Virus record (IMG/VR): IMGVR_UViG_3300048837_001683
Coordinates: 1-40,903 of that record
Reading direction: 5' to 3' (one strand)
Length of the DNA stretch: 40,903 nt
DNA from: a virus
Shown: one piece after another, positions 2,629 through 33,757 of the stretch
Position numbering within the stretch: position 1 is the stretch's first letter
How the letters are laid out: each line of letters opens with the position of its first letter
The notes under the pieces: model-generated
Told to the model about the DNA's origin: nothing
Databases searched by the model: none
What the model saw: the letters and a program-made list of their open reading frames with translations, nothing else
Position numbers and translations under genes: made by a program

Positions 2629-2634
2629 GTCCGA

Positions 2635-5011: not shown

Positions 5012-5040
5012 TTGAAGCGATATCGGCTAGGCGATATCGT
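5012..5040 (+). promoter_or_regulatory. Rightward early promoter and main operator (PR/OR-like)
   Basis: TTGAAG (5012-5017), a 17-base spacer and TATCGT (5035-5040) are followed by six bases and the GTG at 5047. A 22-bp near-palindrome at 5018-5039, two CGATATCG half-sites around GCTAGG, fills the spacer and enters the -10. Only one symmetric pair in it is mismatched. Nineteen bases are repeated exactly at the leftward promoter. Repressor binding here would block early transcription in both directions. Confidence 0.75.
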
Positions 5041-5046
5041 TGCGGC

Positions 5047-13687: not shown

Positions 13688-14262
13688 GCGACGCGAAGTC
13701 TGGTGATCGGTTCGGGCGCTGGACGCTGGTGAGGTTTGGGCCGCACGGCTCCCGACGTGGCGGAGTGCGGTCGAGGTGGACGTGTCGGTGCATCTGCGGC
13801 CACACGCAGCCCGTGTTCCTCGAGGACCTGCAGATGGGGCGCAGCTCTGGCTGCTCACGACCGTCCTGTAGGTCCGTTCACCACGGTCTGACCGCGTTGG
13901 CCGGGGTGATCCCGGAGGCAGCGAGGATGCGGCTCGACAGCCAGTGCATCGTGCTGCGACGCGGTGAGCGGGTGCGCGTCGGTCAGGTGTTCGGTCGATG
14001 GTTGGTGAAGCGCCAGCTCCACCCACAGACCGAAGGTCTGCGTCCACGCCCGCGCGCGCTCGCTGAGTGTGTGTGCGGCAGGAAGCGAATCGTCGTCGAG
14101 CGGGCGCTCAAGATGGGTCGGAGCTGCGGGTGTGGAGACCCCAGCTGCGCGGCATCCTGGGAGGCGTGGTCGAGGATGTGGGCGGTGCTCCGCGACCCCC
14201 CCCCGTCGATTTTTGGAGGACCGACCGGGGAGGAGCGGAGACCCCATGTGAGCGAGCCCTAG
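13684..14262 (+). CDS. Protein with two zinc-finger-like repeats, phage DNA-binding type (192 aa)
   Basis: Two copies of one module are seen. Copy 1 has GDRFGRWTLV (7-16), CRCICG (34-39) and GRSSGC (52-57). Copy 2 has GQVFGRWLV (100-108), ECVCG (128-132) and MGRSCGC (144-150). The pattern is common in small phage proteins, often beside AP2 or HNH domains, neither of which is present here. The cysteines suggest zinc binding and DNA contact. The TTG at 13684 is chosen because it overlaps the methylase stop and keeps the first module intact. A run of nine C at 14196-14204 lies near the end. Confidence 0.6.
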   Translation: MSDAKSGDRFGRWTLVRFGPHGSRRGGVRSRWTCRCICGHTQPVFLEDLQMGRSSGCSRPSCRSVHHGLTALAGVIPEAARMRLDSQCIVLRRGERVRVGQVFGRWLVKRQLHPQTEGLRPRPRALAECVCGRKRIVVERALKMGRSCGCGDPSCAASWEAWSRMWAVLRDPPPSIFGGPTGEERRPHVSEP

Positions 14263-14343
14263 AAAATTCACCCCTATACGCGCGCATGCGCGCGAGGCGC
14301 GCCGAGGAAAACCACAGTCCGAAGGGGAATCGGACGGAAGAAA
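14263..14343 (+). other. Intergenic region before the terminase genes, with two dyads; candidate packaging or promoter region
   Basis: This 81-base gap is AT-richer than its surroundings at its start. It contains CGCGCGCATGCGCGCG (14280-14295), a perfect 16-bp palindrome, and a hairpin with arms GTCCGA (14317-14322) and TCGGAC (14330-14335). GGAAG at 14336-14340 is the likely ribosome site for the GTG at 14344. Packaging sites often lie at or in the small terminase gene, so a pac or cos function is possible. Confidence 0.35.
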
Positions 14344-16470: not shown

Positions 16471-16473
16471 TTT

Positions 16474-16494
16474 GGGCGCAGCGGCGCTGCGCCC
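16474..16494 (+). promoter_or_regulatory. Late-unit inverted repeat, family 1 (copy a), before the portal gene
   Basis: GGGCGCAGC-GGC-GCTGCGCCC is a perfect 9-bp dyad (10 bp with the flanking T/A), starting three bases after the terminase stop and ending 22 bases before the GTG at 16517. GATAGT at 16505-16510 sits at -10 distance if transcription starts at the GTG. It may be an activator site at about -43 to -23, or a terminator/processing hairpin. No T tract follows. Confidence 0.5.
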
Positions 16495-16516
16495 ACACGC
16501 ACGGGATAGTCGGTCC

Positions 16517-17851
16517 GTGGCGGTGACGATCTACGACGCGCAAGGTCGTCCGATCGACTTGCGCGCGCTCCGCCGCGTCCACGTCGACGAGGACAAGCAG
16601 GTCGCTCACGGGCGACCAGCCGGATGGAGCGCATCCACGGAAAGCGTGAGCTCGGTGCTCACGCCCGAGCGTCTCGCGCGACTGTTGAAGAACGCGGACG
16701 GCGGCCACCTGCGCGACTACCTCACGCTCGCAGAGGAGATCGAGGAGCGCGACCTGCACTACCGCAGCGTGCTCGGCACGCGGCGTATGCGGATGACGGG
16801 GATCGTGCCCGCCGTGGAGCCCGCAGACGACTCCTCGAAGGAAGAGGGGATCGCCCAAGAGGTGCGGGATCTCGTATGGAGCCCGCGCTTCGCGCGCCTT
16901 GTGCACGGCATGATGGATGCGGTCTCGAAGGGGCTCTCGTTCGTCGAGATTCTCTGGGACGTGAGCGAAGGGCAGGCCATCCCCGTCGACTTCGTGTGGC
17001 GCGACCCGCGTTGGTATCGCGTCGACCCGCAACGCCTGCGGACTCTCCTCTTCGATGACGGTACGCCCGAAGGGCAGCCGCTCCCGGCCGGCAAGTACAT
17101 CATCCACGATCCGCAGCTGAAGTGCGGTCTTCCGATTCGTGCAGGCCTCGCGCGCCCGGTCTCGATCGCCTACGTGTTCAAGAGCTTCGACCTGCGTGGG
17201 CTCGCGCGGTTCCTGGAGGTCTACGGCATCCCCGCGAGGATCGGGCGATACCCGGTCGGGGCCTCCGACGACGACCAACGCCGGCTGCTGCGCGCGGTGA
17301 AGATCATGGGCAGCGATGCCGCGTGCATCGTCCCCGAAGACATGAACGTCGAGCTCGTGCAGCTGACGGGGCGCGTCGGCAGCGAGACGTTCCTCAGCGT
17401 CGCGACGTACTGGGATCGTCAGATCTCGAAGGCCGTTCTCGGGCAGACGTCGAGCTCCGAAGGGAGCGCGGGCGACTACAAGGCCAGCGCTGAGCACTCC
17501 GGCGTGCGCCTCGACATCGCGCAGCACGACGCACAGACGCTTCAGGCGACGATCATCGAGCAGTTGATCAAGCTCTACGTCGACGTGAACCACGGCGTTC
17601 GCAAGCGATACACCTCCGTCACGCTGAACGTGCCGAAGTCCGAAGATCTCTCGCGCTTCGCATCCGCGATTGTGCAACTCGTCGACCGCGGCCTCGAGGT
17701 CGATCAAGAGCAGGTGCGCGAGCGCATCGGCCTCGCTGCGCCCGAAGACGGCAAGGCTCTCCTGCGCCCCGCTGCGCAGCGCAAGAGCGACGACTCTGAT
17801 CGAGGGTCCGAGTCGCCGCCGCCGAGCGATTCGGGCGACGACGCGCGCTGA
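16517..17851 (+). CDS. Portal protein, Mu gp29 / DUF935 family (444 aa)
   Basis: The central part matches the Mu gp29 type: YLTLAEEIEERDLHYRSVLGTRR, DAVSKGLSFVEILWDV, WRDPRWYRVDP, GLARPVSIAYVFKSFDLRGLARFLEVYG, and SVATYWDRQISKAVLGQT. The portal forms the dodecameric ring at one capsid vertex through which DNA is packaged and released. The C-terminus is Ser/Asp-rich. The GTG at 16517 has no Shine-Dalgarno sequence and follows the inverted repeat at 16474. In Mu the next gene is the minor head protein F (gp30), but here none follows; the next gene is the protease. Confidence 0.9.
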   Translation: MAVTIYDAQGRPIDLRALRRVHVDEDKQVAHGRPAGWSASTESVSSVLTPERLARLLKNADGGHLRDYLTLAEEIEERDLHYRSVLGTRRMRMTGIVPAVEPADDSSKEEGIAQEVRDLVWSPRFARLVHGMMDAVSKGLSFVEILWDVSEGQAIPVDFVWRDPRWYRVDPQRLRTLLFDDGTPEGQPLPAGKYIIHDPQLKCGLPIRAGLARPVSIAYVFKSFDLRGLARFLEVYGIPARIGRYPVGASDDDQRRLLRAVKIMGSDAACIVPEDMNVELVQLTGRVGSETFLSVATYWDRQISKAVLGQTSSSEGSAGDYKASAEHSGVRLDIAQHDAQTLQATIIEQLIKLYVDVNHGVRKRYTSVTLNVPKSEDLSRFASAIVQLVDRGLEVDQEQVRERIGLAAPEDGKALLRPAAQRKSDDSDRGSESPPPSDSGDDAR

Positions 17852-17857
17852 CGAATT

Positions 17858-17878
17858 GGGCGCAGCCTCGCTGCGCCC
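17858..17878 (+). promoter_or_regulatory. Late-unit inverted repeat, family 1 (copy b), before the protease gene
   Basis: GGGCGCAGC-CTC-GCTGCGCCC has arms identical to those at 16474-16494 and differs only in the three loop bases. It starts six bases after the portal stop and ends 23 bases before the GTG at 17902. Identical arms with a changed loop point to a selected dyad or hairpin. Confidence 0.5.
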
Positions 17879-17901
17879 ATCCGTGGTGCAGCTTCCACTT
17901 C

Positions 17902-19059
17902 GTGCTCGGGTTGTTCTCCACGTCCCAAGCGTCCTCGGGCGCCTCCCCCGCCCACGCGTCACCCCTTCCGCGTGAGCGGGCGGAGCGCGCTCTTCCCGCG
18001 GACGCAGCGGAACTGCTGCATCTCGAGCTCTTCGCCTCGAAGCGCGAGGGCTCCGATCGGCTCACCGCACCGTCGTGGGTTCAGATCCTCCCGATGGGCG
18101 AAGAGGGGCATCCCCACGCGCTGCCGGGCGAGCGCGTCGTGCGAGCCCGAGACGGTCGCCAGCTCGCGATCAGCGACTTCGCGACCATCATCGCGAACAC
18201 GCAGGGCTCGCTCCCGCTCCCGTTCGACTGGGACCACAAGTCGCTGCTCGGCGCGTGGTCCGAGGACGGCACTCGCGCCGCGGGGTGGATCGATCGCCTC
18301 GAAGCGGTCGAAGAGCCCGACGAAGACCGTCCGAGACCGGGTCTGTGGGGCCACGTCGAGACGTGGACCCCGAAGGGTCGCGACGACGTCGAGCTCCGCT
18401 ACTACCGAGGCCTGTCGCCCGCGGTGCGCTTCGAGCGCCGATATCCGCGGAAGGACGGCGACCCCCCGCCCCCGCCTCTCGTGCTGGGGCTGATCAACGT
18501 CGCGCTGACGAACCTGCCGGCGCTCGAGATGCACCTCCTGCATTCGCAGGAGCCAGCGGCGCAGCCGCCAAAGGAGATTGAGATGTCCGCTCACCTGCGC
18601 GCGCTCGCTCGGAAGCTCGGGCTCCCGGACGACGCCGACGAGGCCGCAGTCGAGGCCGCCCTCGACGCACAGAACCGAGAACGCGAGGCGCTCGCGCAGC
18701 AGCTCGTGCAGCAGCGAGCGCAGACCTTCGCGGAGAAGGTGCAACGCACGCTCAACGATGCGATCGCATCGAAGAAGCTGCTCCCCGCAGAGCGCGAGCT
18801 CTTCGCGTCGACGCTCGTCGACGACGCGGCGGTCGAGCGCTTCAACGCCTTCATGGCGACGCGCCCCGAGCCGGGCATCTTCAGCACGCCGCCCGCGCCG
18901 CCCGCGCCGCCGGCGAACGCCCCGAAGGGCTCCGCCGAGGTTCCCGCCGGTGACCCGGTGATCTTCCGCCAGATGGGTGTGACCGCCGAGCAGCTCTCGG
19001 AGGTCGCAGCCGAACGCGCCCGCATCCGGGCTTCCAACGCCGGCGGATGGGAGGACTGA
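17902..19059 (+). CDS. Prohead protease/scaffold fusion, Mu gpI-like (385 aa)
   Basis: Residues 55-210 match the Mu I protease family: PLPFDWDHKS (His112), AAGWIDRLE, GLWGHVETWTPKGRDDVE, YYRGLSPAVRFE and ALTNLPALEMH. The C-terminal third (from 228) is a helical, Glu/Ala-rich scaffold ending in a Pro/Ala linker and a short capsid-binding-like tail. The protease cuts scaffold and capsid proteins during head maturation. As in Mu, the scaffold appears also to be made separately from an internal start at 18583. The GTG at 17902 is preferred for its fixed distance from the inverted repeat; the first 30 residues are otherwise unremarkable, so the start is uncertain. Confidence 0.8.
   Translation: MLGLFSTSQASSGASPAHASPLPRERAERALPADAAELLHLELFASKREGSDRLTAPSWVQILPMGEEGHPHALPGERVVRARDGRQLAISDFATIIANTQGSLPLPFDWDHKSLLGAWSEDGTRAAGWIDRLEAVEEPDEDRPRPGLWGHVETWTPKGRDDVELRYYRGLSPAVRFERRYPRKDGDPPPPPLVLGLINVALTNLPALEMHLLHSQEPAAQPPKEIEMSAHLRALARKLGLPDDADEAAVEAALDAQNREREALAQQLVQQRAQTFAEKVQRTLNDAIASKKLLPAERELFASTLVDDAAVERFNAFMATRPEPGIFSTPPAPPAPPANAPKGSAEVPAGDPVIFRQMGVTAEQLSEVAAERARIRASNAGGWED
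18583..19059 (+). CDS. Nested in-frame scaffold protein, Mu gpZ-like (158 aa)
   Basis: Inside the protease gene, AAGGAG at 18571-18576 is followed after six bases by an in-frame ATG at 18583. The product MSAHLRALARKLGLPDD... covers the coiled-coil scaffold domain alone. Mu makes its scaffold Z from such an internal start of I. This Shine-Dalgarno sequence is one of the best in the late region, while the outer gene has none, so the free scaffold should be made in excess over the protease, as assembly requires. Confidence 0.65.
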   Translation: MSAHLRALARKLGLPDDADEAAVEAALDAQNREREALAQQLVQQRAQTFAEKVQRTLNDAIASKKLLPAERELFASTLVDDAAVERFNAFMATRPEPGIFSTPPAPPAPPANAPKGSAEVPAGDPVIFRQMGVTAEQLSEVAAERARIRASNAGGWED

Positions 19060-19060
19060 G

Positions 19061-19918
19061 ATGGCCGCCCTCACTCAAGATCGTGCCACCGTCTCGCGTG
19101 CTGCTGAGCGGCGCCGCTTCCCGCTCGCCGAAGGCGTCATGGCCTTCGCCGGCGGCGGCGCGGTGCTCAACGGCGACGGTTACGTCGAGCCCGCGTCGGA
19201 AGCCGAAGGGCTCACCACGCTCGGCGTCTTCGCCGAGCAGGTCGACAACACCGACGGTGCGGACGGCGACAAGTGGGTCGACGTCGTCGCCGGCAAGCAC
19301 GGCTACAACTTCGATCAGACGGGGACCACGATCACGCAGGCGGACATCGGATCGCTGGCGTACTGGGTCGACGACCAGACCGTGTCGAAGACCTCGGCTG
19401 GTCGCAGTGCGGCCGGTCAGATCTTCGACGTCGGGCCGGAGGGGGTGACCCTCGTGTTCGCTCCGCTGCCGACCACCATCGCCACGATGGGCGCGCAGAT
19501 CGCGCTGCTCACGGAGGTGCTGGCGCGCTCCACCCTCGCGCATTTCGACGTCGACCTCGACGGCCTCGTGGCCGAGACCGCGGTCGACGGGGAAGCCGCC
19601 GTCGTCACTCGAGCGAACGCGATCAAGGCGGCCTACATCGCCCACATCGCGGACACCGACGCGCACTCCGCGGCGGACGCCACGAACACGGTCAGCGCGT
19701 CGGACGCGACGAACCTCGCCACGAGCTACACGCTCCTCAACGAGGTCAAGGCCGATCTGAACGCGCACCTCGCGCGCGCCGACATCCACCGTCGTGCGTC
19801 CGCCGCGCCTTTCCTCGTCAGCGCGACGAACGCGAGCGACGAGGCGACCGCGGAGGCCCTCGCTCTCGACATCTCGCGGATCCTCAACCTCCACGTCTCC
19901 TCGGGCCTCGCGCTCTGA
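19061..19918 (+). CDS. Head decoration-like protein (285 aa)
   Basis: The N-terminal 120 residues have the layout of phage head-decoration/DUF2190-type proteins found before major capsid genes (FPLAEGVMAFAGGGAVLNGDGYVEPAS..., TLGVFAEQVDNT, WVDVVAGKHGY). The C-terminal part (from about 185) is a His/Asp-rich helical repeat, AYIAHIADTDAHSAADATN and DLNAHLARADIHRR, seen in various phage proteins. It may coat the capsid surface. The ATG at 19061 has GGAGG upstream. It is located between scaffold and capsid genes. Confidence 0.6.
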   Translation: MAALTQDRATVSRAAERRRFPLAEGVMAFAGGGAVLNGDGYVEPASEAEGLTTLGVFAEQVDNTDGADGDKWVDVVAGKHGYNFDQTGTTITQADIGSLAYWVDDQTVSKTSAGRSAAGQIFDVGPEGVTLVFAPLPTTIATMGAQIALLTEVLARSTLAHFDVDLDGLVAETAVDGEAAVVTRANAIKAAYIAHIADTDAHSAADATNTVSASDATNLATSYTLLNEVKADLNAHLARADIHRRASAAPFLVSATNASDEATAEALALDISRILNLHVSSGLAL

Positions 19919-19940
19919 GGCCTCACCGACGGAGATCATC

Positions 19941-20825
19941 GTGCTGATCAACAAGACCAACCTGACGCTCTTCGGTCTCGCGGCGGAGAACCACTTCCGC
20001 ACCGCGCTTCGCATGGCCGAACCCGCGTCGCTCCACATGAAGATCTCGACCGAGATCAAGTCCAGTGGCTCCGAGAACATCTACCCGATGATCTCGAGCT
20101 TCCCCTCCATCCGCGAGTGGCTCGGCGACCGTCAGGTCAAGCACCTGAAGGCGTCGCAGTACCGGATCCCGAACAAGCTCTACGAGAGCACGCTCGAGGT
20201 CCGCCGCACGGACCTCGAAGACGACAACCTCGGCCTCTACCCGGCGTCGTTCGCGACGGCCGGCGACGCGGTCGCGGCTCACCCGACGCAGCTCCTCGCG
20301 GCGCTGCTCAGCGCCGCGTTCGTCGACGCGAAGGGCTACGACGAAGCGGTCTTCTTCGGTGACCACGAAGAGGGCGGGCAGATCGTGTCCAACGTCGAGT
20401 CGGGCACCGACAGCATCGCCACGCCGTGGTACCTCCTCGACCTCTCGCGGCCGCTGAAGCCCTTCATCTTCCAGCCCCGCACGGTCGCGGAGCTGCAGGA
20501 GCCGCCCGACGAGACGGCGTTCAAGAACGACGTCTACCTCTACGGCATCCGCCGTCGGTGCGGCGTCGGGTTCGGGCTCTGGCAGCTCGCGTGGGGCTCG
20601 AAGAACGAGCTCGACTCCGAGGCCTTCGACTCCGCCATGGCCGCGATGATGTCGCGCTCCAACGACCAGGGTCAGAAGCTCGGGATCCGTCCGACGCATC
20701 TCCTCTGCGGTCCCTCCCGCCGCGCCGAAGGTCAGGCGCTCCTGGAGACGCAGTACCTCTCGGGTGGCGGCAGCAACCCGAACTACAAGGCCGTCGAGCT
20801 GATGGTGTCGCCATGGCTTCCGTGA
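19941..20825 (+). CDS. Major capsid protein, Mu gpT-like (294 aa)
   Basis: The sequence matches the Mu T family along its length: LFGLAAENHFRTALRMAE, IYPMISSFPSIREWLGDRQVKHL, YRIPNKLYESTLEVRRTDLEDDNLG, FFGDHE, AFKNDVYLYGIRRRCGVGFGLWQLA and LGIRPTHLLCGPSRRAE. It builds the icosahedral shell with the HK97 fold. The GTG at 19941 has GGAG at 19931-19934. The gene end overlaps the next by 13 bases. Confidence 0.9.
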   Translation: MLINKTNLTLFGLAAENHFRTALRMAEPASLHMKISTEIKSSGSENIYPMISSFPSIREWLGDRQVKHLKASQYRIPNKLYESTLEVRRTDLEDDNLGLYPASFATAGDAVAAHPTQLLAALLSAAFVDAKGYDEAVFFGDHEEGGQIVSNVESGTDSIATPWYLLDLSRPLKPFIFQPRTVAELQEPPDETAFKNDVYLYGIRRRCGVGFGLWQLAWGSKNELDSEAFDSAMAAMMSRSNDQGQKLGIRPTHLLCGPSRRAEGQALLETQYLSGGGSNPNYKAVELMVSPWLP

Positions 20826-21226
20826 AGCGGGGAGCGGAGGAGGCCGAGGCGAAGTCGGAAGCGACTTCGGCCGAAGCCGAGTCGGCCTCTACGCAGTTCG
20901 CGTCGTCCACGGCCGTCGCCGAGCAGTTCGCGCAGCTCATGCAGCGCATCGACCAGCTCGAGCAGCGCGTCACCGGACGTCTCGACGAGAATACGCGAGG
21001 CCTTCGGGGTCTCGACGCGCGACTCGCAGGGGTGGCGCGCGCGCCGAGTTCTCCTCCGGCGACGCTGCGCAAGGTCGAGGTGCGTCTCGCGGAGAGCACC
21101 CGCCGGAGCTCGATGGTCGTCGCCGGAATCACCGTCTACGCACGCCCACGCGTCGTGTCGGTGACCGAGCGGAAGCTCGAGCAGCTCCGTGCGGAGCAAC
21201 GTGTCGTCGTGACTCCCGCCGAGTGA
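20813..21226 (+). CDS. Mu gp35-like protein (137 aa)
   Basis: The C-terminal 35 residues (AGITVYARPRVVSVTERKLEQLR...VVVTP) match the end motif of Mu gp35-like proteins, encoded just after the capsid gene in Mu-like phages. The N-terminal 80 residues are an Ala/Glu-rich linker with a coiled coil (FAQLMQRIDQLEQRV). Its function in the Mu head is not defined. ATG at 20813 lies inside the capsid gene end. Confidence 0.55.
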   Translation: MASVKRGAEEAEAKSEATSAEAESASTQFASSTAVAEQFAQLMQRIDQLEQRVTGRLDENTRGLRGLDARLAGVARAPSSPPATLRKVEVRLAESTRRSSMVVAGITVYARPRVVSVTERKLEQLRAEQRVVVTPAE

Positions 21227-21645
21227 TCATGCCCACCTTCGCCTCGCCCATCGACCTGCAGAATCACCTCGGAGAGACGCGCTACGCGGATCTCACCGAT
21301 CGTGACGCTGATGGCATGGTGGACGAGACGGGGGTCGAGCAGGCGCTCGAGGACGCGTCGTCGAAGGCAGCGAGCTACTGCGCGCGATGGTTGCCGATCT
21401 CGGTCGTGCCCCCATCGCTGCGCGGCGCCGTGTGCGACCTCGCCACCTACGACCTCGCCGGCGACAAGGCGACCGACGAGGAACGGCGAAAGGCGGAGCT
21501 TGCCCTCGCGTGGCTCCGCGACGTCGCGAAGGGGCTCGCGACGCTCGGGCTCGACCCGCAGCCGTCGAAGCCGAGCGTGACGGGTCCGCGCATCGAAGCG
21601 GATCCCGCGCTCTTCACCCGCCGTCAGACCCGAGGTCTCCTGTGA
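21223..21645 (+). CDS. Head-tail connector protein, Mu gp36 / DUF1320 (140 aa)
   Basis: The pattern FASPIDLQNHLGETRYADLTDRD...VEQALEDASSKAASYCARWLP and the Pro-then-Leu-Arg segment PPSLRGAVCDLATYDLAGD, with a run of basic residues before ALAWLRDVAKG, matches DUF1320 (Mu gp36). These proteins form the adaptor ring under the portal. GTG at 21223 (GTGA overlap) or ATG at 21229 is the start. Confidence 0.75.
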   Translation: MIMPTFASPIDLQNHLGETRYADLTDRDADGMVDETGVEQALEDASSKAASYCARWLPISVVPPSLRGAVCDLATYDLAGDKATDEERRKAELALAWLRDVAKGLATLGLDPQPSKPSVTGPRIEADPALFTRRQTRGLL

Positions 21646-22028
21646 GCCTCACGATCACCACCGACGTCGAGTCGGTCGTCGCGCGCGTCCGTCGCCTCGC
21701 CGAGCTCCCGCTCCTCGACGCCTACGTCGAGCTCGCGCTCGAGCAGACCGAGGAGGCCTTCGCGCGCGGTGGCTCGCCGCACGACGGCGGGTGGCGACCG
21801 CTCGCGCCCTCGACGGTCGCGCGGAAGCGCGGCCGCGGCGTGCTCGAGGAGACCGGCGCGCTCCGCGCCAGCATCACCGCCGAGCGCAGCGGCGACGTCG
21901 CGACGATCGGCAGCCCTCTCCGCTATGCGGGTCCGAACAACCGCGTCCGCCCGTTCCTCGACGCGCGCGTCGACGAGACCGAGTGGGCGCGCACCGCGAC
22001 GCGCCTCGTCCTCCAGGAGCTCACGTGA
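21642..22028 (+). CDS. Tail completion / virion morphogenesis protein, Mu gpG family (128 aa)
   Basis: The signature order is clear: FARGGSPHDGGWRPLAPSTV, then LEETGALRASIT, IGSPLRYAG and VRPFLDARVDE, as in the phage virion morphogenesis family that includes Mu G and P2 S. It finishes the tail or connects it to the head. In Mu, G lies with F before I; here it sits between gp36 and gp38, where Mu has gp37. GTG start at 21642 in a GTGA overlap. Confidence 0.8.
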   Translation: MSLTITTDVESVVARVRRLAELPLLDAYVELALEQTEEAFARGGSPHDGGWRPLAPSTVARKRGRGVLEETGALRASITAERSGDVATIGSPLRYAGPNNRVRPFLDARVDETEWARTATRLVLQELT

Positions 22029-22219
22029 CCCAAGAACGTCTCAAGCCGCGCGAAGGCCTGCTCGTGCCGAACCCGGCGACCGGCAAGCACCTCGCCGCCG
22101 CCGGCGAGCGCGTCGAGCTCTCGCCCTACTGGCGCCGTCGCCTCGCCGCCGGCGAGGTCGAGCGCGTCGCCCCGCCTCCCTCCAAGCCCGCGAAGGCGAA
22201 GCCGCGCGAGGAGACCTGA
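22025..22219 (+). CDS. DUF2635 protein, Mu gp38-like (64 aa)
   Basis: The compact motif KPREGLLVPNPATGKHLAAAGERV...YWRRRLAAGEVE is that of DUF2635, the small gene before the sheath gene in Mu-like phages. The tail end is Lys/Pro-rich. GTG at 22025 in a GTGA overlap. Its role is not established. Confidence 0.8.
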   Translation: MTQERLKPREGLLVPNPATGKHLAAAGERVELSPYWRRRLAAGEVERVAPPPSKPAKAKPREET

Positions 22220-22222
22220 TCC

Positions 22223-23686
22223 ATGAGCTACGGCTTCCAGCAGATCCCCGTCCAGAACTTCAGCCCCGGCTTCCACGCCGAGCTCGCGTTCCGCCGCGCC
22301 GGCCTCGGGGCCGCGCCGCGCGACGCGCTCATCGTCGGCTACCTGCGCGACGGCGACACCGATCACGACCTCGAACCGATCGTCGTGCTCGGCGAGAGCG
22401 ACGCGCGGATCCCGCGCAAGAGCCAGCTCGCGGAGATGATCCGGTCGTTCCGCCGCGTGAACCTCACGTCGCGCATCACCGCGATCGGGCTCACGCCTCC
22501 GAGCGCCGGCACGGCGGCTGCCGGCACGCTCACGGTGACGGGGACGGCCACGGCGTCGGGCACCATCGTCGTCTACGTCGCCGGCAAGCGCATCGAGGTC
22601 GGCGTCACCTCCGGCGACACCAACGACGACGTCGCCGCGGCGATCGAGGCCGCGATCGACGCCGATCCCGACATCCCGATGACGTCGGCGGTGGGCGCCG
22701 ATCCGAACGAGCACGTCGTGACCGTCACGGCGAACTTCAAGGGCGTGGAGGGCAACCGGCTCCGTCTCGCGGTCGACCCGCTCGACACGGATCTCGGGGT
22801 CGCTGGGATCTCCATCGCCGTCGTGCAGCCCACCGGCGGCGCGGGGACGCCGGATCTCGACGACGCGATCGCGCTCGTCACGAGCGAGCGCTTCTACTCC
22901 GTGATCGTCGGCTTCTCCGACGCGACCTCGATCGGCGCGCTCGTCGACGAGATGGTTCGTCGCGAGGACGCGATGGTCGCGCTCGACGGCAAGGGCTTCC
23001 TCGGCATCCGCGGGACCTTCGCCGAGCAGATCACCGAGGCGGACGCCTACAACTCGCCCCTGATCTGCATCCTCGGCGCGGGCCCGAGCGTGACGCCCCC
23101 GTGGGTGCTCGCCTGCCTCGCCGCGGGGTGGGACTCGCGCAAGCCGCACCCGGTGCAGGGGTATCTCAACCTCCCGCTGCCCGGCTTCCTCGCGCCGTTC
23201 TCGCTCGCCGACCGGCCCGACAAGCCGGAACGTGACCTCTCGCTCGCCGCCGGCGTCTCGACCTGGCGCGTGAACGGATCGCAGGTCGTTCTCGACCAGC
23301 TCGTCACGACGCGGACCGAGGACGACTCGGCGAACCCCGACACGTCGCGGCTCCTGCTGACGTTGGGCCGCACCGCGGAAGCGCTCCGCTTCTCGTGGGT
23401 TGCGTCGCTGCAGAAGTTCGCGAACTTCGTGCTCGCCGACGCACCGGACCTCGCGACGCCGCCTCCGGGCGCGCCGATCCTCACGCCGAGCTCGCTGCGG
23501 TCGCACGCGATCGACTGGTTCATCCAGGTTCGCGACGGCCTCGGCCTCGTGCAGGACCTCGAGGCCTTCAAGGCCGAGCTCGACGCGCGCGTCAACGAGC
23601 TCGACCCGAACCGGCTCGACGCGTTCCTCCCGCCTCGCGTCACGCGTCAGCTCGTGACGATCGCCTCTCTCATCCAGATCCGGTGA
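22223..23686 (+). CDS. Tail sheath protein, Mu gpL-like (487 aa)
   Basis: The start VPVQNFSPGFHAE-like (IPVQNFSPGFHAE) and the body (ALIVGYLRDGD, RITAIGLTP, FYSVIVGFSDATSIGALVDEM, FAEQITEADAYNSPLICILG, PPWVLACLAAGW) and the C-terminus (AELDARVNELDPNRLDAFLPP...LVTIASLIQIR) are typical for contractile sheath proteins. Residues 95-215 contain an inserted beta domain. It forms the outer, contracting tail layer around the tube encoded next. ATG at 22223 follows GAGGAGACC. Confidence 0.9.
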   Translation: MSYGFQQIPVQNFSPGFHAELAFRRAGLGAAPRDALIVGYLRDGDTDHDLEPIVVLGESDARIPRKSQLAEMIRSFRRVNLTSRITAIGLTPPSAGTAAAGTLTVTGTATASGTIVVYVAGKRIEVGVTSGDTNDDVAAAIEAAIDADPDIPMTSAVGADPNEHVVTVTANFKGVEGNRLRLAVDPLDTDLGVAGISIAVVQPTGGAGTPDLDDAIALVTSERFYSVIVGFSDATSIGALVDEMVRREDAMVALDGKGFLGIRGTFAEQITEADAYNSPLICILGAGPSVTPPWVLACLAAGWDSRKPHPVQGYLNLPLPGFLAPFSLADRPDKPERDLSLAAGVSTWRVNGSQVVLDQLVTTRTEDDSANPDTSRLLLTLGRTAEALRFSWVASLQKFANFVLADAPDLATPPPGAPILTPSSLRSHAIDWFIQVRDGLGLVQDLEAFKAELDARVNELDPNRLDAFLPPRVTRQLVTIASLIQIR

Positions 23687-23693
23687 GGTACCC

Positions 23694-24047
23694 ATGAGCG
23701 TCCGCAAGACCGGTCGAGTCGTCGTGAAGGTCAACGGCTCGACCTACAAGAGCCTCCCGGGCGCCGCGATGCAGCCGGGCGGGGTGCGCCGCACGCACGA
23801 GATGACCTCGGACGGGAAGTCCGTCTACACCGAGAGCGACTTCCCCGGCGAAGTCCGCGCGACGTTCCCGCACGTCTCCGGCCTCGGCCTGATCGACCTG
23901 CAGAACGTCGCCGAGGGCACGGTCGAGTACGTCTGCGACACGGGCGAGGTCTACGTGCTCCCGTCGGCGTCGTACGCCGAGTCGGGCGACCTCGAGAACG
24001 GCAACGTGCAGATCACGTGGCGCGGTGATCCGATGGTGCTCTCGTGA
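23694..24047 (+). CDS. Tail tube protein, Mu gpM-like (117 aa)
   Basis: A small beta-rich protein directly after the sheath gene with the Mu tube pattern: KTGRVVVKVNGSTYKSLPGAA, GGVRRTHEMTSDGKSVYTES, PGEVRATFPHVSGL and NVQITWRGDP. Stacked hexamers of it form the inner tube through which DNA passes. The gene overlaps the next by four bases (GTGA). Confidence 0.85.
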   Translation: MSVRKTGRVVVKVNGSTYKSLPGAAMQPGGVRRTHEMTSDGKSVYTESDFPGEVRATFPHVSGLGLIDLQNVAEGTVEYVCDTGEVYVLPSASYAESGDLENGNVQITWRGDPMVLS

Positions 24048-24394
24048 GCGAGTCGGTGGAGACCGACGCCGAAGAGCAAGCGCGTCAAGAGGCGGTCGCG
24101 AAGCTGCGCGCCGAGCTCGACGCGCGGATCTCCGAGCTGCCGAACGGAGACCTCGTCGTCGAGCTCCTCGAGCCGGTGAAGAGCGCGGACGGCGGCACGC
24201 GCGGCCGCATCCTCGTCCGGCGGGCGACGCTCGCCTCGTGGCGGATCTACGACCGCACCGGCGACTTCGACGCCTTCCTCGACGCGCTCTGCGAGTCGCG
24301 GGACCACCTCGCGATCACGAACGAGCGCGACGCGTGGGCGCTCGAGCGCGCGGGAGCGCGACAGCGGGAAAAATTCCGGCGGAGTGGCGCGTAG
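24044..24394 (+). CDS. Tail assembly chaperone, Mu gp41 position (116 aa)
   Basis: The place between tube and tape measure and the content ISELPNGDLVVELLEPVKSADGG...ILVRRATLASWRIYD identify the tail assembly chaperone. Such proteins coat the tape measure while the tube polymerises. Its last codons contain GGGAAAAA at 24366-24373, and a second frame stays open to 24504, as in phages that make a longer form by ribosomal frameshift. Confidence 0.7.
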   Translation: MSESVETDAEEQARQEAVAKLRAELDARISELPNGDLVVELLEPVKSADGGTRGRILVRRATLASWRIYDRTGDFDAFLDALCESRDHLAITNERDAWALERAGARQREKFRRSGA

Positions 24395-24504
24395 CGGTCG
24401 GCGCTCTCCTCCGTGTCTGGTCACCGGCCGTGCTTGACGCGATCCCGCTCGACGAGCTCGGGTGGTGGATTTCCCTGCTGAACGAGGGTCGCCCGCATGG
24501 CTGA
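24367..24504 (+). CDS. -1 frame extension of the tail assembly chaperone (frameshift product C-terminus)
   Basis: After a -1 shift at the A5 run (24369-24373) translation continues IPAEWRVAVGALL... and ends LGWWISLLNEGRPHG at 24504, overlapping the tape measure start by eight bases. The segment is well coded and has no start codon of its own near its beginning. Programmed frameshifts at this gene are conserved in tailed phages. The codons at the slip are GAA AAA, so this is not the textbook X XXY YYZ site; the A-site slip is perfect but the P-site is not. Confidence 0.5.
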   Translation, partial: GKIPAEWRVAVGALLRVWSPAVLDAIPLDELGWWISLLNEGRPHG

Positions 24505-26224: not shown

Positions 26225-26227
26225 CGC

Positions 26228-26249
26228 GGCGCCGCGTCGCGCGCGCGGC
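26228..26249 (+). promoter_or_regulatory. Late-unit inverted repeat, family 2 (copy a), before gpN-like gene
   Basis: The 22 bases are identical to 33713-33734 and nearly identical to 30740-30761. Arms GCCGCG and CGCGGC pair around a seven-base loop. The repeat begins three bases after the tape measure stop and ends 23 bases before the GTG at 26273. The gap contains no ribosome site. Confidence 0.5.
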
Positions 26250-26272
26250 ACGAAGCGACGAACGCTCGACCG

Positions 26273-27544: not shown

Positions 27545-28598
27545 GCTCGCGCCGCAGCTCGAGGTCCGCGTCGCTGGCGAGCGCGTGCGCGGCTTCCGCT
27601 CTGCGAGCGTGACGCAGAGCCTCGACCAGCTCGCGAGCCAGTGGCGCGTCGAGTACGACGCGAGCTACGCGGGCGACCCGTGGGTGATCGAGGCGGGTGA
27701 CCCTGTCGAGCTCCGCGTCGTCGGCGCCGGCGGCGTCGACGAGCTCGTTCTCGAGGGCTTCGTCGACGACGACGAGTCGGCGCTGGACGGACGACTGCTC
27801 TCACGGTCGATCGCGGGTCGCTCGCGCCTCGGCGACGTCGTCGACTGCGACGCGAGCGTGCGCGAGATGAAGCTCCGCAACGTCGGCGTGATCGACGTCG
27901 CGAACGCGCTGCTCGACGGCTACGAGGTCACGGCTCTCGACGAGAGCGGTGAGGCCGCGCGATGGCCCGTCTTCAAGGTCGACGTCGGCGAGACGATCGG
28001 GAGCGCGCTGCAGCGCGCCGCGAAGGATCGCGGGATGATCGTGCGGGACGACGCCGGCGCCGTCGTCTTCTCGCGCGCGGGTCAGGCCGCGACGTCGACG
28101 CGCCTCGTCGAGGGTGGAGACCGCGTGCTCTCGTGGCGCTACGCGCGCTCGTGGAGGGAACGCTTCAGCGAGTACCGCTTCCTCGGCACCGGGCGCGGCG
28201 AGACGGCCGACGACGCGGTGGGGCGCACCGAGTACATCCTCCGCGACGAGGCCGTGACCCGGACGCGGCGTCACACGGTGCACGTCTGGGGCGCGAAGGG
28301 GGAGGACCGCGCGAAGCGCGCGACGCTCGAGCGCAACACGCGCGCGGGCCGGAGCGAGCGCGTCACTCTGCAGGTGGCGGGCTGGCTCACCGACGAGGGC
28401 GGGATCTGGAGACCGAACACGCGCGTCTCGGTGCAGAGCGAGACCCTCGGGATCAACGCCACGCTCCTGATCGTCTCCGCGACCCTCGAGTCGGGGCCGG
28501 AGCTCCACCGCACCACCCTCGAGCTCACGCGCCCGGAGGCTCTGGATGCCGTGGTGAACTACCCGACGCGTGCGCGAGGTGCCGAATGGAGGAGCTGA
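27537..28598 (+). CDS. Baseplate hub protein, Mu gpP-like (353 aa)
   Basis: The protein has the T4 gp27-like hub architecture of Mu P: VRVAGERVRGFRSASVTQSLDQLASQW at the start, DPVELRVVGAGG, the GRSRLGDVVDCDASV turn, GETIGSALQRAAKDRGMIVRDDAGAVVFSR and a late NTRVSVQSETLGINATLLIVSATL. It links the tube to the spike. GTG at 27537 overlaps the previous gene. Confidence 0.85.
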   Translation: MSELAPQLEVRVAGERVRGFRSASVTQSLDQLASQWRVEYDASYAGDPWVIEAGDPVELRVVGAGGVDELVLEGFVDDDESALDGRLLSRSIAGRSRLGDVVDCDASVREMKLRNVGVIDVANALLDGYEVTALDESGEAARWPVFKVDVGETIGSALQRAAKDRGMIVRDDAGAVVFSRAGQAATSTRLVEGGDRVLSWRYARSWRERFSEYRFLGTGRGETADDAVGRTEYILRDEAVTRTRRHTVHVWGAKGEDRAKRATLERNTRAGRSERVTLQVAGWLTDEGGIWRPNTRVSVQSETLGINATLLIVSATLESGPELHRTTLELTRPEALDAVVNYPTRARGAEWRS

Positions 28599-29164
28599 AG
28601 CGCGAGATCCTGGCGTACGTGCGTCGCGCGATCCGCGACGCGACTGCGCGGATCAACCTCGCCGTCGACGCCGGCATCGCGAAGCTCGTGAAGGACGACG
28701 CGGGCGTCGTCGTCCTCCAGGTCGAGCAGCTCGCGGGCGAGCTCGACGATCAGGTGGAGTACTGGCAGCCGTCGGGCCTGTCGTTCGTGCCGCCCGTCGG
28801 GAGCGAGGTCCTCTTCGCGAGTGTCGGAGGCGACCGCGGGCATGCCGTCGCCGTCGCCGTGCAGAAGCGCGATCAGCGACCGAAGAACTGCAAGCCGGGC
28901 GAGGGCGGGCTGCACTACCTCGGCGAATGGAAGGTCTTCGTCGACGAGGACGGCAACACGTGCCTCGGGGCGAAGTCGCCCTCCGACTTCGCTGCGCTGC
29001 AGTCGTTGGTGGAGGCGGAGCTCGACAAGATCCGCGACGCGATCATCAACGGCGTACCCGGCTCGATGGACGGCGGCGCCGCGCTTCTCGCGAGCATCAT
29101 CGCCAACCTGAGCGCGGCACCCCGCGAGTCGGTGGGGTCGACGAAAGTGAAGATCGAACCGTGA
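28586..29164 (+). CDS. Baseplate spike protein, Mu gp45-like (192 aa)
   Basis: After a helical N-terminus (EELKREILAYVRRAIRDATAR) follows the OB-fold-like domain (VLQVEQLAGELDDQVEYWQPSGLSFVPPVGSEVLF, VGGDRGHAVAVAVQ) of Mu gp45/gpV spikes. The trimeric spike pierces the outer membrane. A C-terminal histidine-metal apex motif is not obvious; the end is helical instead (SLVEAELDKIRDAII). Genes on both sides overlap it. Confidence 0.8.
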   Translation: MEELKREILAYVRRAIRDATARINLAVDAGIAKLVKDDAGVVVLQVEQLAGELDDQVEYWQPSGLSFVPPVGSEVLFASVGGDRGHAVAVAVQKRDQRPKNCKPGEGGLHYLGEWKVFVDEDGNTCLGAKSPSDFAALQSLVEAELDKIRDAIINGVPGSMDGGAALLASIIANLSAAPRESVGSTKVKIEP

Positions 29165-29595
29165 TCCGCCTCGCCTTCGACCCCTCGACTGGTGCGTGCG
29201 ACCTCGTCGTCGACGACGACGGGTTGCTCGCTGCCGGCGACCCGCTCGAGACGGCCGTGCTGATCTCGCTCTTCACCGATCGGCTCGTCACGCCGGCGGA
29301 GGTCCCGGAGGGCACCTCGCGCGGCGGTTGGTGGGGCGCCGCGTTCCCGTACGTCGCCGGCGACGTCGAGGGCTCGCGCCTCTGGTCGCTGCTCGCCCGC
29401 GGTCGCGAGGACCGCGTCGCTCTGCTCGCAGCGGCCGATCATGCGCGTGAGGCGCTCGCGTGGCTGCTCGAGGACAGCCTCGCCGACGTCGTCGGCGCCG
29501 TCGCAGAGCGACTCGACAACGGGCGAATCGCCCTCGAAGTGACGATCACCCTGGACGGCGACAGCCGCACGCTCCGCTACGAGTACGAGGTCTGA
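29161..29595 (+). CDS. Baseplate wedge protein, Mu gp46-like (144 aa)
   Basis: The order ETAVLISLFTDRLVTPAEVPEG, RGGWWGAAFP, GSRLWSLLARGRE and ALAWLLEDSLADVVGAV is that of Mu gp46 (T4 gp25-like) proteins, which initiate sheath assembly on the baseplate. The GTG at 29161 makes a GTGA overlap with the spike gene. Confidence 0.85.
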   Translation: MIRLAFDPSTGACDLVVDDDGLLAAGDPLETAVLISLFTDRLVTPAEVPEGTSRGGWWGAAFPYVAGDVEGSRLWSLLARGREDRVALLAAADHAREALAWLLEDSLADVVGAVAERLDNGRIALEVTITLDGDSRTLRYEYEV

Positions 29596-29598
29596 CCC

Positions 29599-30672
29599 AT
29601 GGCATTCGCTCGCCCCTCCCTCGTCGAGCTCCTCAACCGTGCGCGCGCGGACATCACCGACGCGATGGAGCTCGCGATCACGATCCCGCGCCGGAGCGTC
29701 GAGGACATGCTCGCGCGCGCGCTCGCGGGCCTCGCGCACGGGCTGCACGGACACCTCGCGTGGGTCGCCGAGCAGATTCTCCCCGACCGCGCGACCGCTC
29801 CCTTCGTGCTCCGGTGGGGGGCGCTCCTCGGGCTCTCGCTGCGAGCTCCGACGAAGGCCGTCGGCGTGGTGCACTTCAACAGCCCGACGGACCTCGAGCT
29901 GCCACTCGGGACGCTCATGCGGAGCGATGCCGGCATCGAGTACGAGGTGGTCGGCACGTTCGCGCCCGGCGGCGAGCTCTCGATCGCGGTGGTGCAGGCC
30001 GTCGAGCCGGGGACGGCCGGCAACCTCGAGTCCGGCGAGCTCACCCTCGTCTCGCCGGTTGCCGGCATCAGCTCCGAGGGCGCGGTCCAGTTCCCGGGTC
30101 TCACCGGCGGCGCGGACCAGGAGACGATCGAGCAGCTCCGCAGCCGCGTCGTCGCTCGCCTCGCGCAGGGCAACGGATGCGGAGCTCCCGGCGACTACGT
30201 CGCGTGGGCGCTCGAGACACCGACGACGCGCGTGCTGAGGGCGTGGGAGTTCCCGGAGCGCAGCGGCGCCGGCACCGTCGATGTCTTCGTCACCGTGCAG
30301 GCGACCGGCGAGCCCGACTTCGTGAACCCCTCGACGGAGCAGCTCGAGGAGATCCAGGCCTACCTGGACTCGGTCGCTCCTGTCACTGTCGAGGTCACCG
30401 CGATCGCCCCCACGCAGCAGGGCGTCGCGGTCACGTTCACCTCGCTCACGCCGGACACCGAGGATGTGCGCGAGGCGATCGAGGCGGAGCTCCGCAGCAT
30501 GTTCTTCCGAGACAGCGCGCCCGGCGAGACCATCCTTCTGTCGCACGTGCGCGAGGCGATCAGCGCCGCGGAGGGGGAGGTCGACTTCACTATCAGTGCG
30601 CCCGCGGGCAACACTGTCGCGAGCTCGACCGCGCACCTGCCGGTGCTGGGAACGATCACGTGGCCGACGTGA
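29599..30672 (+). CDS. Baseplate J-like protein, Mu gp47 (357 aa)
   Basis: The family features are present: an N-terminal helical domain (PSLVELLNRARADI, PRRSVEDMLARALAGLAHGLHGHLAWVAEQI), the J core (GTLMRSDAGIEYEVV, AGNLESGELTLVSPVAGI, GGADQETIEQLRSRVVARLA) and the PGDYVAWALETPTTRVLRAWEFP stretch. It forms the baseplate wedge. ATG at 29599 three bases after the previous stop. A 113-base gap follows. Confidence 0.9.
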   Translation: MAFARPSLVELLNRARADITDAMELAITIPRRSVEDMLARALAGLAHGLHGHLAWVAEQILPDRATAPFVLRWGALLGLSLRAPTKAVGVVHFNSPTDLELPLGTLMRSDAGIEYEVVGTFAPGGELSIAVVQAVEPGTAGNLESGELTLVSPVAGISSEGAVQFPGLTGGADQETIEQLRSRVVARLAQGNGCGAPGDYVAWALETPTTRVLRAWEFPERSGAGTVDVFVTVQATGEPDFVNPSTEQLEEIQAYLDSVAPVTVEVTAIAPTQQGVAVTFTSLTPDTEDVREAIEAELRSMFFRDSAPGETILLSHVREAISAAEGEVDFTISAPAGNTVASSTAHLPVLGTITWPT

Positions 30673-30739
30673 TGTAGGTGTCCCGTCGCCAACCCTCATT
30701 TTCGCGCCCCGGAAATTGACTCAGCTCCCAAGCCGTCGC

Positions 30740-30761
30740 GGCGCCGCGTCGCGCACGTGGC
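30740..30761 (+). promoter_or_regulatory. Late-unit inverted repeat, family 2 (copy b), before gp48-adhesin gene
   Basis: The bases follow the family-2 sequence with two changes. Both arms are 8 bp (GCGCCGCG and CGTGGCGC); one change makes a G-U pair in rightward RNA, so the RNA hairpin is kept while the DNA dyad is imperfect. It ends 24 bases before the GTG at 30786. The remaining gap 30673-30739 holds an A/T-richer stretch and nothing else recognised. Confidence 0.5.
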
Positions 30762-30785
30762 GCGCGACGCGACACCGTCTCCGAC

Positions 30786-32870
30786 GTGGGTGCCCTCCGC
30801 GACCTGATCGGACTGCTGCCGCGCGGAGCTGCGTGGAACACGAGCCCGGACTCATACCTCGGCCGGCTGCTCACTGGCCTCGCGGCCGAGTTCGACCGCG
30901 TCGAAGCGCGCGCGGCCGACCTGCAGCGCGAGGCCTTCCCGCTCACCGCCGACGAGCTCCTGCGCGAGTGGGATGCGGCGGTTGCACTCGACTACCCAGG
31001 TGCGCTCACCGGTGGCTTCGACAAAGATCTCGCGCGCGCCATGATCGCGTGGCTGCTGGAGACGTCGACGCTCTCGCGCGCGTCCATAGAGCGGTTCTGT
31101 GCTCTGTCCGAGATTCCCTTCGCGGCGGATGGGGACGGCGTCACTCGGCCGCTCTACCGACTCCTCGGAGTCACCCACACCGACACGCACGAGGCGACGA
31201 TCCGTCTGCTCGCAGAGGGAGGCTCCGCGTTCGTCGAGGACCTCCTTCGGCGCCGCGCGCACGCGACGGGGACGCTCGTGTTCGACTGGGTCGTCCCGGC
31301 GATCGCGATCACGTCGCCGGCGGATGAGTCGATCGCGTGCGACGAGCTCGTCACCGTCACCGGCACGAGCACCGGAGTCGGGACCGTCCAGGTCGTCGTC
31401 ACCGAGTCAGGTGGCCTCGTCACCACGTACACGACCACCGCGGACTCGGGCACGGGTGAGTGGTCCGTGCAGATCCTGCTCGCGACCTACCTCGACGGCG
31501 AGGACACCACGATCGTCGCGCGTGGCTACACGGGGATCGTCACCGCCGCCGCGGGGTGGGTCGAGTCGACGCCGATCGTCGTGACGAGCGAGTTCGGCGT
31601 GAGCGTGTACTTCGCGGGGCCGTTCACGACGACCGAGGGCTTCCCGACGTTCACCGGCAGCGCGACGCCGGGCTCGACCATCGTGATCGAGCTGCGGGGC
31701 GATCAGGAGCTGCCGGTCGTCGCCGACGTGAACGGCGACTGGTCCGTCGAGATGGCGAACCAGAATCTCGAAACCGGCACGAACGAGCTCACGATCTTCG
31801 TGACCGGGCCGGGCCCGTGCGAGCACGAGGACTCGATCGTAGTCGAGGTCGAGCTCGAGGCGGGCGTTCCCGTGATCACGGCTCCGCCCGCGCTCGCGTG
31901 GACGGTCGCGCACGGCACGTCGCCAGCGATCACGCCGCCGACCTACACGGGCGACGCAGGCACGATCACCTACGATCTGATCCGCCTCCCCTCCACGACC
32001 GTGCTCTCCGGTGTGTCGGAGGCGACGGTCGAAGCGTATGTCTCCGACCGCGCGACCGACGTGGGTCCGAGCTGGAAGGTCACGGCGACCGTCACGAACG
32101 GGAGCGGGAGCGACTCCGAGGACTCGAACACCGTCGCATGGGATCCGATCGCGACTCTTGCCCCCGTGCGCTGGCTGGAGGCCGACTCCGCGGACATCAC
32201 GGTCAATGGCTCGGACGACGTCACGCTTTGGGAAGACCGGAGTTCGGCGGGCGTCGACATGAAAGGCCCCTCGGGCCCGATTCCGACCTACATCCCGACT
32301 GACGCGGCACTCAACAATCGCGGATCCGTCGACTTCGCCGCCGCGTCGAGCGAGACGCTGCGTGAGGACTCGATCGCTGCAGATCTGCGGTGTTTGCACG
32401 ACGCAACCGGCGGCACCTTCGTTGCGGTGGTGGACACGGATGGCGCGGGCACGACGCAGACGCTCTTCACCACGAGCGGTGTCTTCACCGCCGCGAATAT
32501 CGGATTGTTTATCCGCTACACCGCGAGCGGGTTTCGTGTCGGAGTGTGCAACGGGTCGGGCACCTTCGTCGCAGATGTTACGGGCGCCATCACAGGCGGA
32601 GCCAAGGGCGCGCTAATCGTGCGCCTCGACTCCTCCGCGAGCCCCCCGCTTTCCGTCCGGTGGCGTGGGTCGCAGATCGCAAGCGCAGGCTCGCTCACCG
32701 GCACACCATCGACATCGAGCAGCACGTCGGCCGCACGCCTTGGTGTCACGAGCACGCTGATCCAGCCGTGGGACGGGCGGGTCGCGCAGGTAGGCGTCGT
32801 CCCCGACTACGTGAGCGGAGACGCGCTGCTCGATCTCGAGCGCTACTGCGAGTGGAAGTGGGGGCTTTGA
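30786..32870 (+). CDS. Mu gp48-like baseplate protein fused to Ig-like and lectin-like domains, putative tail fibre/adhesin (694 aa)
   Basis: Residues 1-165 match the Mu gp48/DUF2313 (YmfQ) type: LRDLIGLLPRGAAWNTS, RLLTGLAAEFDRVEARAADLQREAFP, TADELLREWDAAVAL and FVEDLLRR. Then come three Ig-like beta domains (about 172-267, 275-357, 362-452) with SPADESIACDELVTVTGTS and EWSVQI-type strands, and a lectin/LamG-like domain (460-694) that starts VRWLEADSADITVNGSDDV and ends LERYCEWKWGL. gp48 is usually about 200 residues; here it carries its own receptor-binding part. No separate fibre or fibre chaperone is present. Base composition is less GC-rich around 32390-32600, hinting at domain acquisition. 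Confidence 0.75.
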   Translation: MGALRDLIGLLPRGAAWNTSPDSYLGRLLTGLAAEFDRVEARAADLQREAFPLTADELLREWDAAVALDYPGALTGGFDKDLARAMIAWLLETSTLSRASIERFCALSEIPFAADGDGVTRPLYRLLGVTHTDTHEATIRLLAEGGSAFVEDLLRRRAHATGTLVFDWVVPAIAITSPADESIACDELVTVTGTSTGVGTVQVVVTESGGLVTTYTTTADSGTGEWSVQILLATYLDGEDTTIVARGYTGIVTAAAGWVESTPIVVTSEFGVSVYFAGPFTTTEGFPTFTGSATPGSTIVIELRGDQELPVVADVNGDWSVEMANQNLETGTNELTIFVTGPGPCEHEDSIVVEVELEAGVPVITAPPALAWTVAHGTSPAITPPTYTGDAGTITYDLIRLPSTTVLSGVSEATVEAYVSDRATDVGPSWKVTATVTNGSGSDSEDSNTVAWDPIATLAPVRWLEADSADITVNGSDDVTLWEDRSSAGVDMKGPSGPIPTYIPTDAALNNRGSVDFAAASSETLREDSIAADLRCLHDATGGTFVAVVDTDGAGTTQTLFTTSGVFTAANIGLFIRYTASGFRVGVCNGSGTFVADVTGAITGGAKGALIVRLDSSASPPLSVRWRGSQIASAGSLTGTPSTSSSTSAARLGVTSTLIQPWDGRVAQVGVVPDYVSGDALLDLERYCEWKWGL

Positions 32871-33220
32871 TGTCCGCTGACGACCCCACACTCCCGGGCC
32901 GAATCGGCGCACGCCGGCCTCGCCCGACGAGCGCGCGCGCGATGCGCGCCGTCGCGTCGACGAGGAAGTCGATCGACGAGGCGATCAAGCTCGATGGCGC
33001 GCTCCGCGAGCACGCGATCGAGCAGGCGATCGAAGCCGCCATCGATGCCGGCGGCGAGGTCTCGAAGATCCAGCTCGACGCGCTGCGGCAGCAGGTGACC
33101 GACCAGCAGGGTCGCATCGCCGACCTCGAGCAGACGATCGAGTTCAAGAACGAGAAGATCGCGCGGCTCGAGAGGGCGCTCGAGCAGATGACGAAGCGCG
33201 TGGGGCGAACGGAGCGGTGA
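32870..33220 (+). CDS. Coiled-coil hypothetical protein (116 aa)
   Basis: ATG at 32870 overlaps the adhesin stop (TGATG). A basic N-terminus (RPTSARAMRAVASTRKS) is followed by a coiled coil with heptad spacing (QVTDQQGRIADLEQTIEF, KIARLERALEQMTKRV). No membrane span or family. Position at the border of tail and lysis genes; role unknown. Confidence 0.55.
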   Translation: MSADDPTLPGRIGARRPRPTSARAMRAVASTRKSIDEAIKLDGALREHAIEQAIEAAIDAGGEVSKIQLDALRQQVTDQQGRIADLEQTIEFKNEKIARLERALEQMTKRVGRTER

Positions 33221-33711
33221 TGGACGAGCTCGACCCGGCGAAGGCGGTGGGGATCGGCGGGGGAGGTCTGCTCGCGGGCGTCCTGGGTCGCTACGGGTAC
33301 CGATGGCTCCGCGGGCTCCTCGCCGAGTGGCGGCGGGTCCGCGCGGAGCGGAGCGCCGAGAGAGCCGGACACATCGCCGAGCTGCAGCGTCAGGTCGCCT
33401 CGCTCGAAGGTCAGATGTCGGGGCTGAGGAAGCACTACGAGGGCCGTCTCGACGAGTTCGCGGCGAAGCTCGACGCGGAGGTTCGCGCGCGCTTGCAGCT
33501 CCAGGTGGAGCTCGAAGCGGAGCGGGGCGCGCACGCCCGCACGCGCGATCAGCGTGACGAGGTGAGCGCGCGCGAGGCTGCTCTCGAGGCCCGCCTTATG
33601 GGTCGCATCGCGGAGCTCGAGGCAGAGAACCGCGGCCGGGACCGCGCCCACGCGGAGATGCTTCAGCGGGCGATCGAGACGGTGCTCGCGCGTCGCGAGG
33701 GCCACGGCTGA
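33220..33711 (+). CDS. Membrane-anchored coiled-coil protein, possible inner-membrane spanin (163 aa)
   Basis: A Gly-rich hydrophobic segment (GIGGGGLLAGVLGRYGYRWL, residues 11-31) precedes more than 100 residues of charged coiled coil with heptads (AELQRQVASLEGQMSGL). This is the layout of i-spanins, and a lipoprotein gene (34372) lies two genes on. The segment is short for a membrane span, so the call is weak. ATG at 33220 is preferred to GTG 33217. Confidence 0.45.
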   Translation: MDELDPAKAVGIGGGGLLAGVLGRYGYRWLRGLLAEWRRVRAERSAERAGHIAELQRQVASLEGQMSGLRKHYEGRLDEFAAKLDAEVRARLQLQVELEAERGAHARTRDQRDEVSAREAALEARLMGRIAELEAENRGRDRAHAEMLQRAIETVLARREGHG

Positions 33712-33712
33712 C

Positions 33713-33734
33713 GGCGCCGCGTCGCGCGCGCGGC
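33713..33734 (+). promoter_or_regulatory. Late-unit inverted repeat, family 2 (copy c), before the holin-like gene
   Basis: Identical over 22 bases to 26228-26249. With the following GC it makes an 8-bp stem (GCGCCGCG, CGCGGCGC) and seven-base loop. It begins one base after the upstream stop and ends 23 bases before the ATG at 33758, which has GTGGGGGC but no consensus ribosome site before it. Confidence 0.5.
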
Positions 33735-33757
33735 GCGCGCTCGCGCAGCGTGGGGGC

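Follow-up and report, generated by a model that had tools for sequence, protein, structure and literature searches.

Repeats before five late genes of a temperate phage as candidate leaderless, activator-dependent promoters

Five genes in the late cluster of a temperate phage begin without a recognizable ribosome-binding sequence, and each is preceded at nearly the same distance by an inverted repeat. We asked what these repeats are: sites on the DNA at which transcription begins, or elements of the message that is read through them. The window analyzed here is the whole IMG/VR record IMGVR_UViG_3300048837_001683, 40,903 bases long with 70.9% G+C. The phage carries Mu-type head and tail genes (portal, protease, sheath, tube and baseplate), and the same record encodes Cro/CI-type regulators and a tyrosine integrase. 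Sequence resembling a tRNA 3' end, perhaps that of a serine tRNA, and a strong intrinsic terminator lie at 36830-36896, within the integrase ORF and toward its 3' end. This is a likely position for attP, inside int, an arrangement like that of myxophage Mx8. Elsewhere, a gene for a ParB-like protein is followed by a DNA methyltransferase gene (11013-13687), and a direct repeat, CACCCGTCACGCGTGAC, with 24 bp spacing is found at 9020-9073 within the ORF at 8650-9699.

Repeats and start codons in the late cluster

Non-coding sequence makes up 1.6% of the late cluster. Its gaps of more than 22 nt number five (46, 50, 48, 113 and 46 nt), and each of them holds one of the five repeats. Two apparent further gaps were dropped because they are coding. 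Near 32870, ATG 32870 overlaps the previous stop, and at 24394-24497 a -1 frameshift extends the tail chaperone ahead of the tape measure gene. The tail assembly chaperone ORF with this extension spans 24044-24503, up to the tape measure start, and contains a slippery-looking run, GGGAAAAA, near 24364.

The repeats fall into two families (Table 1). Family 1 consists of two perfect dyads whose arms are identical between copies, and the window contains no further copy at up to 3 mismatches, its own reverse strand aside. The three copies of family 2 form a 25-bp direct repeat, identical at 22 of the 25 bases, that contains an imperfect 23-bp dyad; its 15-base core has exact matches in the window at these three sites only. 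The family-2 dyads pair at 7, 8 and 8 of 11 positions, and those of family 1 at 11 and 10. Perfect dyads alone are little above chance, with 5 entries against a shuffle mean of 1.4 and a maximum of 6. By comparison, a 16-mer in three copies was reached in none of 20 shuffles. Thus, it is the repetition and the placement, rather than perfect dyads as such, that exceed chance. The first-pass annotation had described two repeat families in late gaps; they are real, and at that quality they are found nowhere else in the window. The distance from repeat to start codon, given there as 22-24 bases, is in fact 21, 22, 21, 22 and 21 nt across the five sites, among which copies within one family are not independent of each other. 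As had also been noticed, four of the five dyads start close to the preceding stop (2-5 nt past it), the exception being dyad 30741, which starts 68 nt past the stop.

Comparison with other genomes returned no counterpart of these elements. When the portal, gpN, terminase and capsid proteins served as queries, the scans gave no close relatives or only distant ones. Repeated dyad families are lacking in homologous phages of the same gene order (25-44% identity), and nothing in them reproduces the architecture convincingly. The family-1 arms are in no other viral contig compared, and the single family-2 match in another contig has unrelated surroundings and seems to be there by chance. Short-query BLAST against phages yielded matches at chance level only (E 5-6), and the repeats have no match in Rfam.

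We then examined the start codons themselves. The gpN start (gpN is the baseplate hub or circularization protein) agrees exactly with its homologues, homologues of the portal agree within one codon, and the protease GTG is the earliest possible start in its frame. The gene at ATG 33758 encodes a signal-peptide-like protein and is the first on the lysis side. Shine-Dalgarno pairing energies at the five starts are -4.3, -2.8, -1.2, +0.4 and -4.3, similar to random positions (median -2.9). Pairing is weaker than at the other late starts (p = 0.004), and the difference persists when the comparison is with the 8 other late starts that do not overlap a neighboring gene (p = 0.002). These data bear out the earlier observation that the five first genes lack Shine-Dalgarno sequences; the five repeats precede exactly those non-overlapping late starts at which such pairing is missing.

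A -10-type hexamer at a fixed distance from the dyads

If transcription starts at the start codons, a -10 box is expected to end 6 or 7 nt upstream of them. All five sites have a hexamer of the form NANNNT exactly 9 bp 3' of the 23-bp dyad and ending at this place (Table 1). The hexamer was recognized once the sites were known, its place following from the leaderless hypothesis of the first-pass annotation. The -10 A and T ending 6 or 7 nt upstream are present at all five starts and at 5 of 52 others, a Cro-like gene among them (Fisher test, 6e-5); 5.2% of all ATG/GTG have them at that place. When 1920 combinations of letter pair and position were tested, this A/T pair alone reached five of five. 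Of the 1910 further 23-bp dyads that the window contains, 1.1% show the hexamer at the corresponding place.

The distances also indicate which elements belong together. With the dyad end as reference point, the 21-22 nt spacers agree throughout in two columns only, those of the A and the T, and are otherwise unlike; under letter shuffling, the expected number of such cases is 1.7e-8 for this pair and 0.012 when any pair is allowed. With the start codon as reference point, there is no invariant column at all. In both families, the hexamer A is exactly 22 bp downstream of the dyad centre (44 of 55 pairs; next-best centre 32). Because the distance from dyad to hexamer is exact and no column is invariant relative to the start codon, the fixed unit is dyad, 9 bp, hexamer. 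With the start codon following 6 or 7 nt on, this is promoter logic and not ribosome-site logic. The hexamers are weak: four of the five agree with TATAAT at no positions other than the A and the T, and position 1 is never a T. None of the five sites has a -35 hexamer at the usual distance from the -10; the dyad centre, G+C only or nearly so, occupies that place. A promoter scan detected none of the five late sites.

Two early promoters of the same phage served as internal controls. Both are leaderless, and the 6-nt spacing from -10 to start is common to them and the late sites. However, the early promoters have real -35 boxes, whereas the late sites have the dyad in that place. An early operator, CGATATCGGCTAGGCGATATCG, occurs in two copies (2639-2657 and 5018-5039), each inside the 17-bp spacer of one of these promoters.

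Table 1 Coordinates of the late repeats, the -10-type hexamers, the early promoters and the integrase ORF
Feature	Positions	Strand	Description
Family-1 dyad	16473-16495	+	10-bp arms, loop GGC
-10-type hexamer GATAGT	16505-16510	+	6 nt before portal start GTG 16517
Family-1 dyad	17857-17879	+	10-bp arms, loop CTC
-10-type hexamer CAGCTT	17889-17894	+	7 nt before protease start GTG 17902
Family-2 repeat	26228-26252	+	dyad 26229-26251
-10-type hexamer AACGCT	26261-26266	+	6 nt before gpN start GTG 26273
Family-2 repeat	30740-30764	+	dyad 30741-30763
-10-type hexamer CACCGT	30773-30778	+	7 nt before baseplate-wedge gene start GTG 30786
Family-2 repeat	33713-33737	+	dyad 33714-33736
-10-type hexamer CAGCGT	33746-33751	+	6 nt before ATG 33758
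Early rightward promoter, leaderless	5012-5049	+	TTGAAG-17-TATCGT-6-GTG; operator in spacer
Early leftward promoter, leaderless	2626-2663	-	TTGACG-17-TACACC-6-ATG; operator copy in spacer
Integrase ORF	36584-38170	-	

Candidate late promoters and competing readings

A palindrome at an exact distance from a weak -10 box near a start codon makes a DNA-binding activator and leaderless messages probable. Judging from the sequence, we consider it likely, with a probability of about 0.7, that the five elements are the promoters of five late transcription units and that these promoters are leaderless and activator-dependent. The regulon of a late activator with transcripts beginning at the start codon, one of the possibilities raised by the first-pass annotation, thereby gains support, since every one of the five sites has the -10-type hexamer where this hypothesis predicts it, and the distance to the dyad is exactly the same each time. 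Where transcription starts, that there is an activator and what it is, and that expression is late are inferred. In this model, a dimeric activator, most likely phage-encoded, would bind the palindrome, which would be centred at about -33 (spanning about -44 to -22) in place of the missing -35 box; one protein could serve both families, or two proteins with different sites. Once bound, the activator would bring in host RNA polymerase at the weak -10 box when late expression begins. Transcription would start at the start codon, and the resulting mRNA, being leaderless, would have no need for a Shine-Dalgarno sequence. Family 1 would serve the portal and protease genes, and family 2 the genes for gpN and the baseplate wedge and the first gene on the lysis side.

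We more tentatively put forward, at somewhat less than even odds, a broader proposal: that two palindromes, one for head genes and one for tail and lysis genes, act from one -33 centre on promoters without a -35 box, and that a temperate phage would in this way have major structural genes translated from leaderless mRNAs under a new phage activator or activator pair. Two candidates for the activator are a CII-like protein (6123-6641) and a small protein (8246-8653) whose AlphaFold model, of low confidence (pLDDT 57.5), shows winged-helix-like elements and a long helix at the C terminus. Directly upstream of the terminase genes, the ORF at 13684-14262 encodes two CxC...SCGC zinc-like repeats, has a PHROG HNH-type match (1.6e-10) and is possibly a regulator. 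A palindrome, CGCGCGCATGCGCGCG, and a dyad, GTCCGA...TCGGAC, lie beside an AT-richer stretch at 14281-14335, upstream of the small terminase gene, and the first late promoter may be located within this segment.

The main rival keeps the same leaderless promoters and makes the dyads operators, at which a repressor or a host regulator silences the late genes in the lysogen. Placed over the -35 region, such operators would keep polymerase out, and the phage is temperate with Cro/CI-type genes. However, promoters with no -35 box and weak -10 boxes should be too weak to need repression, and the late sites are unlike the CI/Cro-type operators of this phage; we regard this use of the sites as unlikely. 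Less probable still is that the repeats act as RNA hairpins in a late polycistronic message, setting the translation start of the downstream gene or the processing or stability of the message. The perfect 10-bp stem of family 1 fits such a role, as does the position of the elements just beyond a ribosome footprint ahead of starts that lack Shine-Dalgarno sequences. The invariant distance, however, is the one to the -10 A/T rather than that to the start codon, and a leaderless message would not include the dyad. The first-pass annotation had favored an RNA hairpin on the basis of base changes between copies. For family 2, this preference is not sustained: each of the three copies has a minimum-energy fold of its own, and alongside a G-U change in one copy there is a C-A mismatch at 26228. 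The family-1 arms do not vary and are uninformative on compensating changes; in read-through RNA, this family would fold into a stable hairpin, possibly with relevance to upstream messages.

It is also conceivable that the dyads are transcription terminators behind late units and that their spacing to the next start is a by-product of compact packing, a reading that would account for the four dyads just past a stop. We consider it very improbable, since no T-tract follows any dyad and the repeat at 30740 keeps the exact hexamer distance even though it lies well past its stop. The repeats do not look like partition sites for the ParB-like protein, given their link to -10 boxes ahead of five starts. 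Ribosome hopping over the gaps was rejected, since the gap lengths share no frame. Inspection of the five sites by eye revealed no match to sigma-54 promoters.

Comparison with known phage promoters and repeats

Set beside named families by likeness only, the sites appear to work like promoters at which an activator replaces the -35 box. In T4, middle messages carry leaders, and the MotA box is not known to form a 23-bp dyad. The Pfam scans revealed no MotA or AsiA relative. In mechanism, the T4 middle promoters are the closest working parallel: in this case of sigma appropriation by MotA/AsiA, a dedicated activator site stands in place of the -35 box and the -10 box is retained (PMC7403470). 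The late promoters of Mu (Plys, PI, PP and Pmom, dependent on activator C) offer a likeness of another kind, in that several activator-dependent promoters would lie within a late cluster whose head and tail genes are homologous. However, C binds upstream of -35 in Mu (PMC4461284), whereas the dyads described here are centred at about -33 and precede starts without Shine-Dalgarno sequences. Pfam scans of the early proteins gave no Mor/C family match. A link to activator C, which the first-pass annotation had suggested, is thus not upheld as homology.

Among actinophages, the Microbacterium phages of cluster EG (Hyperion and OneinaGillian) carry 18-bp inverted repeats that recur within short gaps, 14-22 bp ahead of start codons (PMC7302621). 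We read the sites of Hyperion and OneinaGillian and found a purine-rich, Shine-Dalgarno-like leader after most repeats, compared with none of the five sites in the window. The EG units accordingly have leaders and differ from those described here. The 17-bp dyads of mycobacteriophage cluster O and the SAS/ESAS elements of cluster K are phage-specific, lie near many starts and have no known function, and predicted leaderless SigA promoters occur in cluster O as well (PMC4351075, PMC3203893). Unlike the sites in the window, the cluster O dyads are scattered, some of them inside genes, and the cluster K inverted repeats are joined to a Shine-Dalgarno-like 13-mer.

Start-linked inverted repeats have thus been reported in several actinophage clusters without known function, and the exact geometry found here suggests a testable role: an activator site that replaces the -35 box on a leaderless promoter. 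If this reading is true, leaderless messages serve the structural genes, and not only the regulators, of a phage whose head and tail genes are of Mu type.
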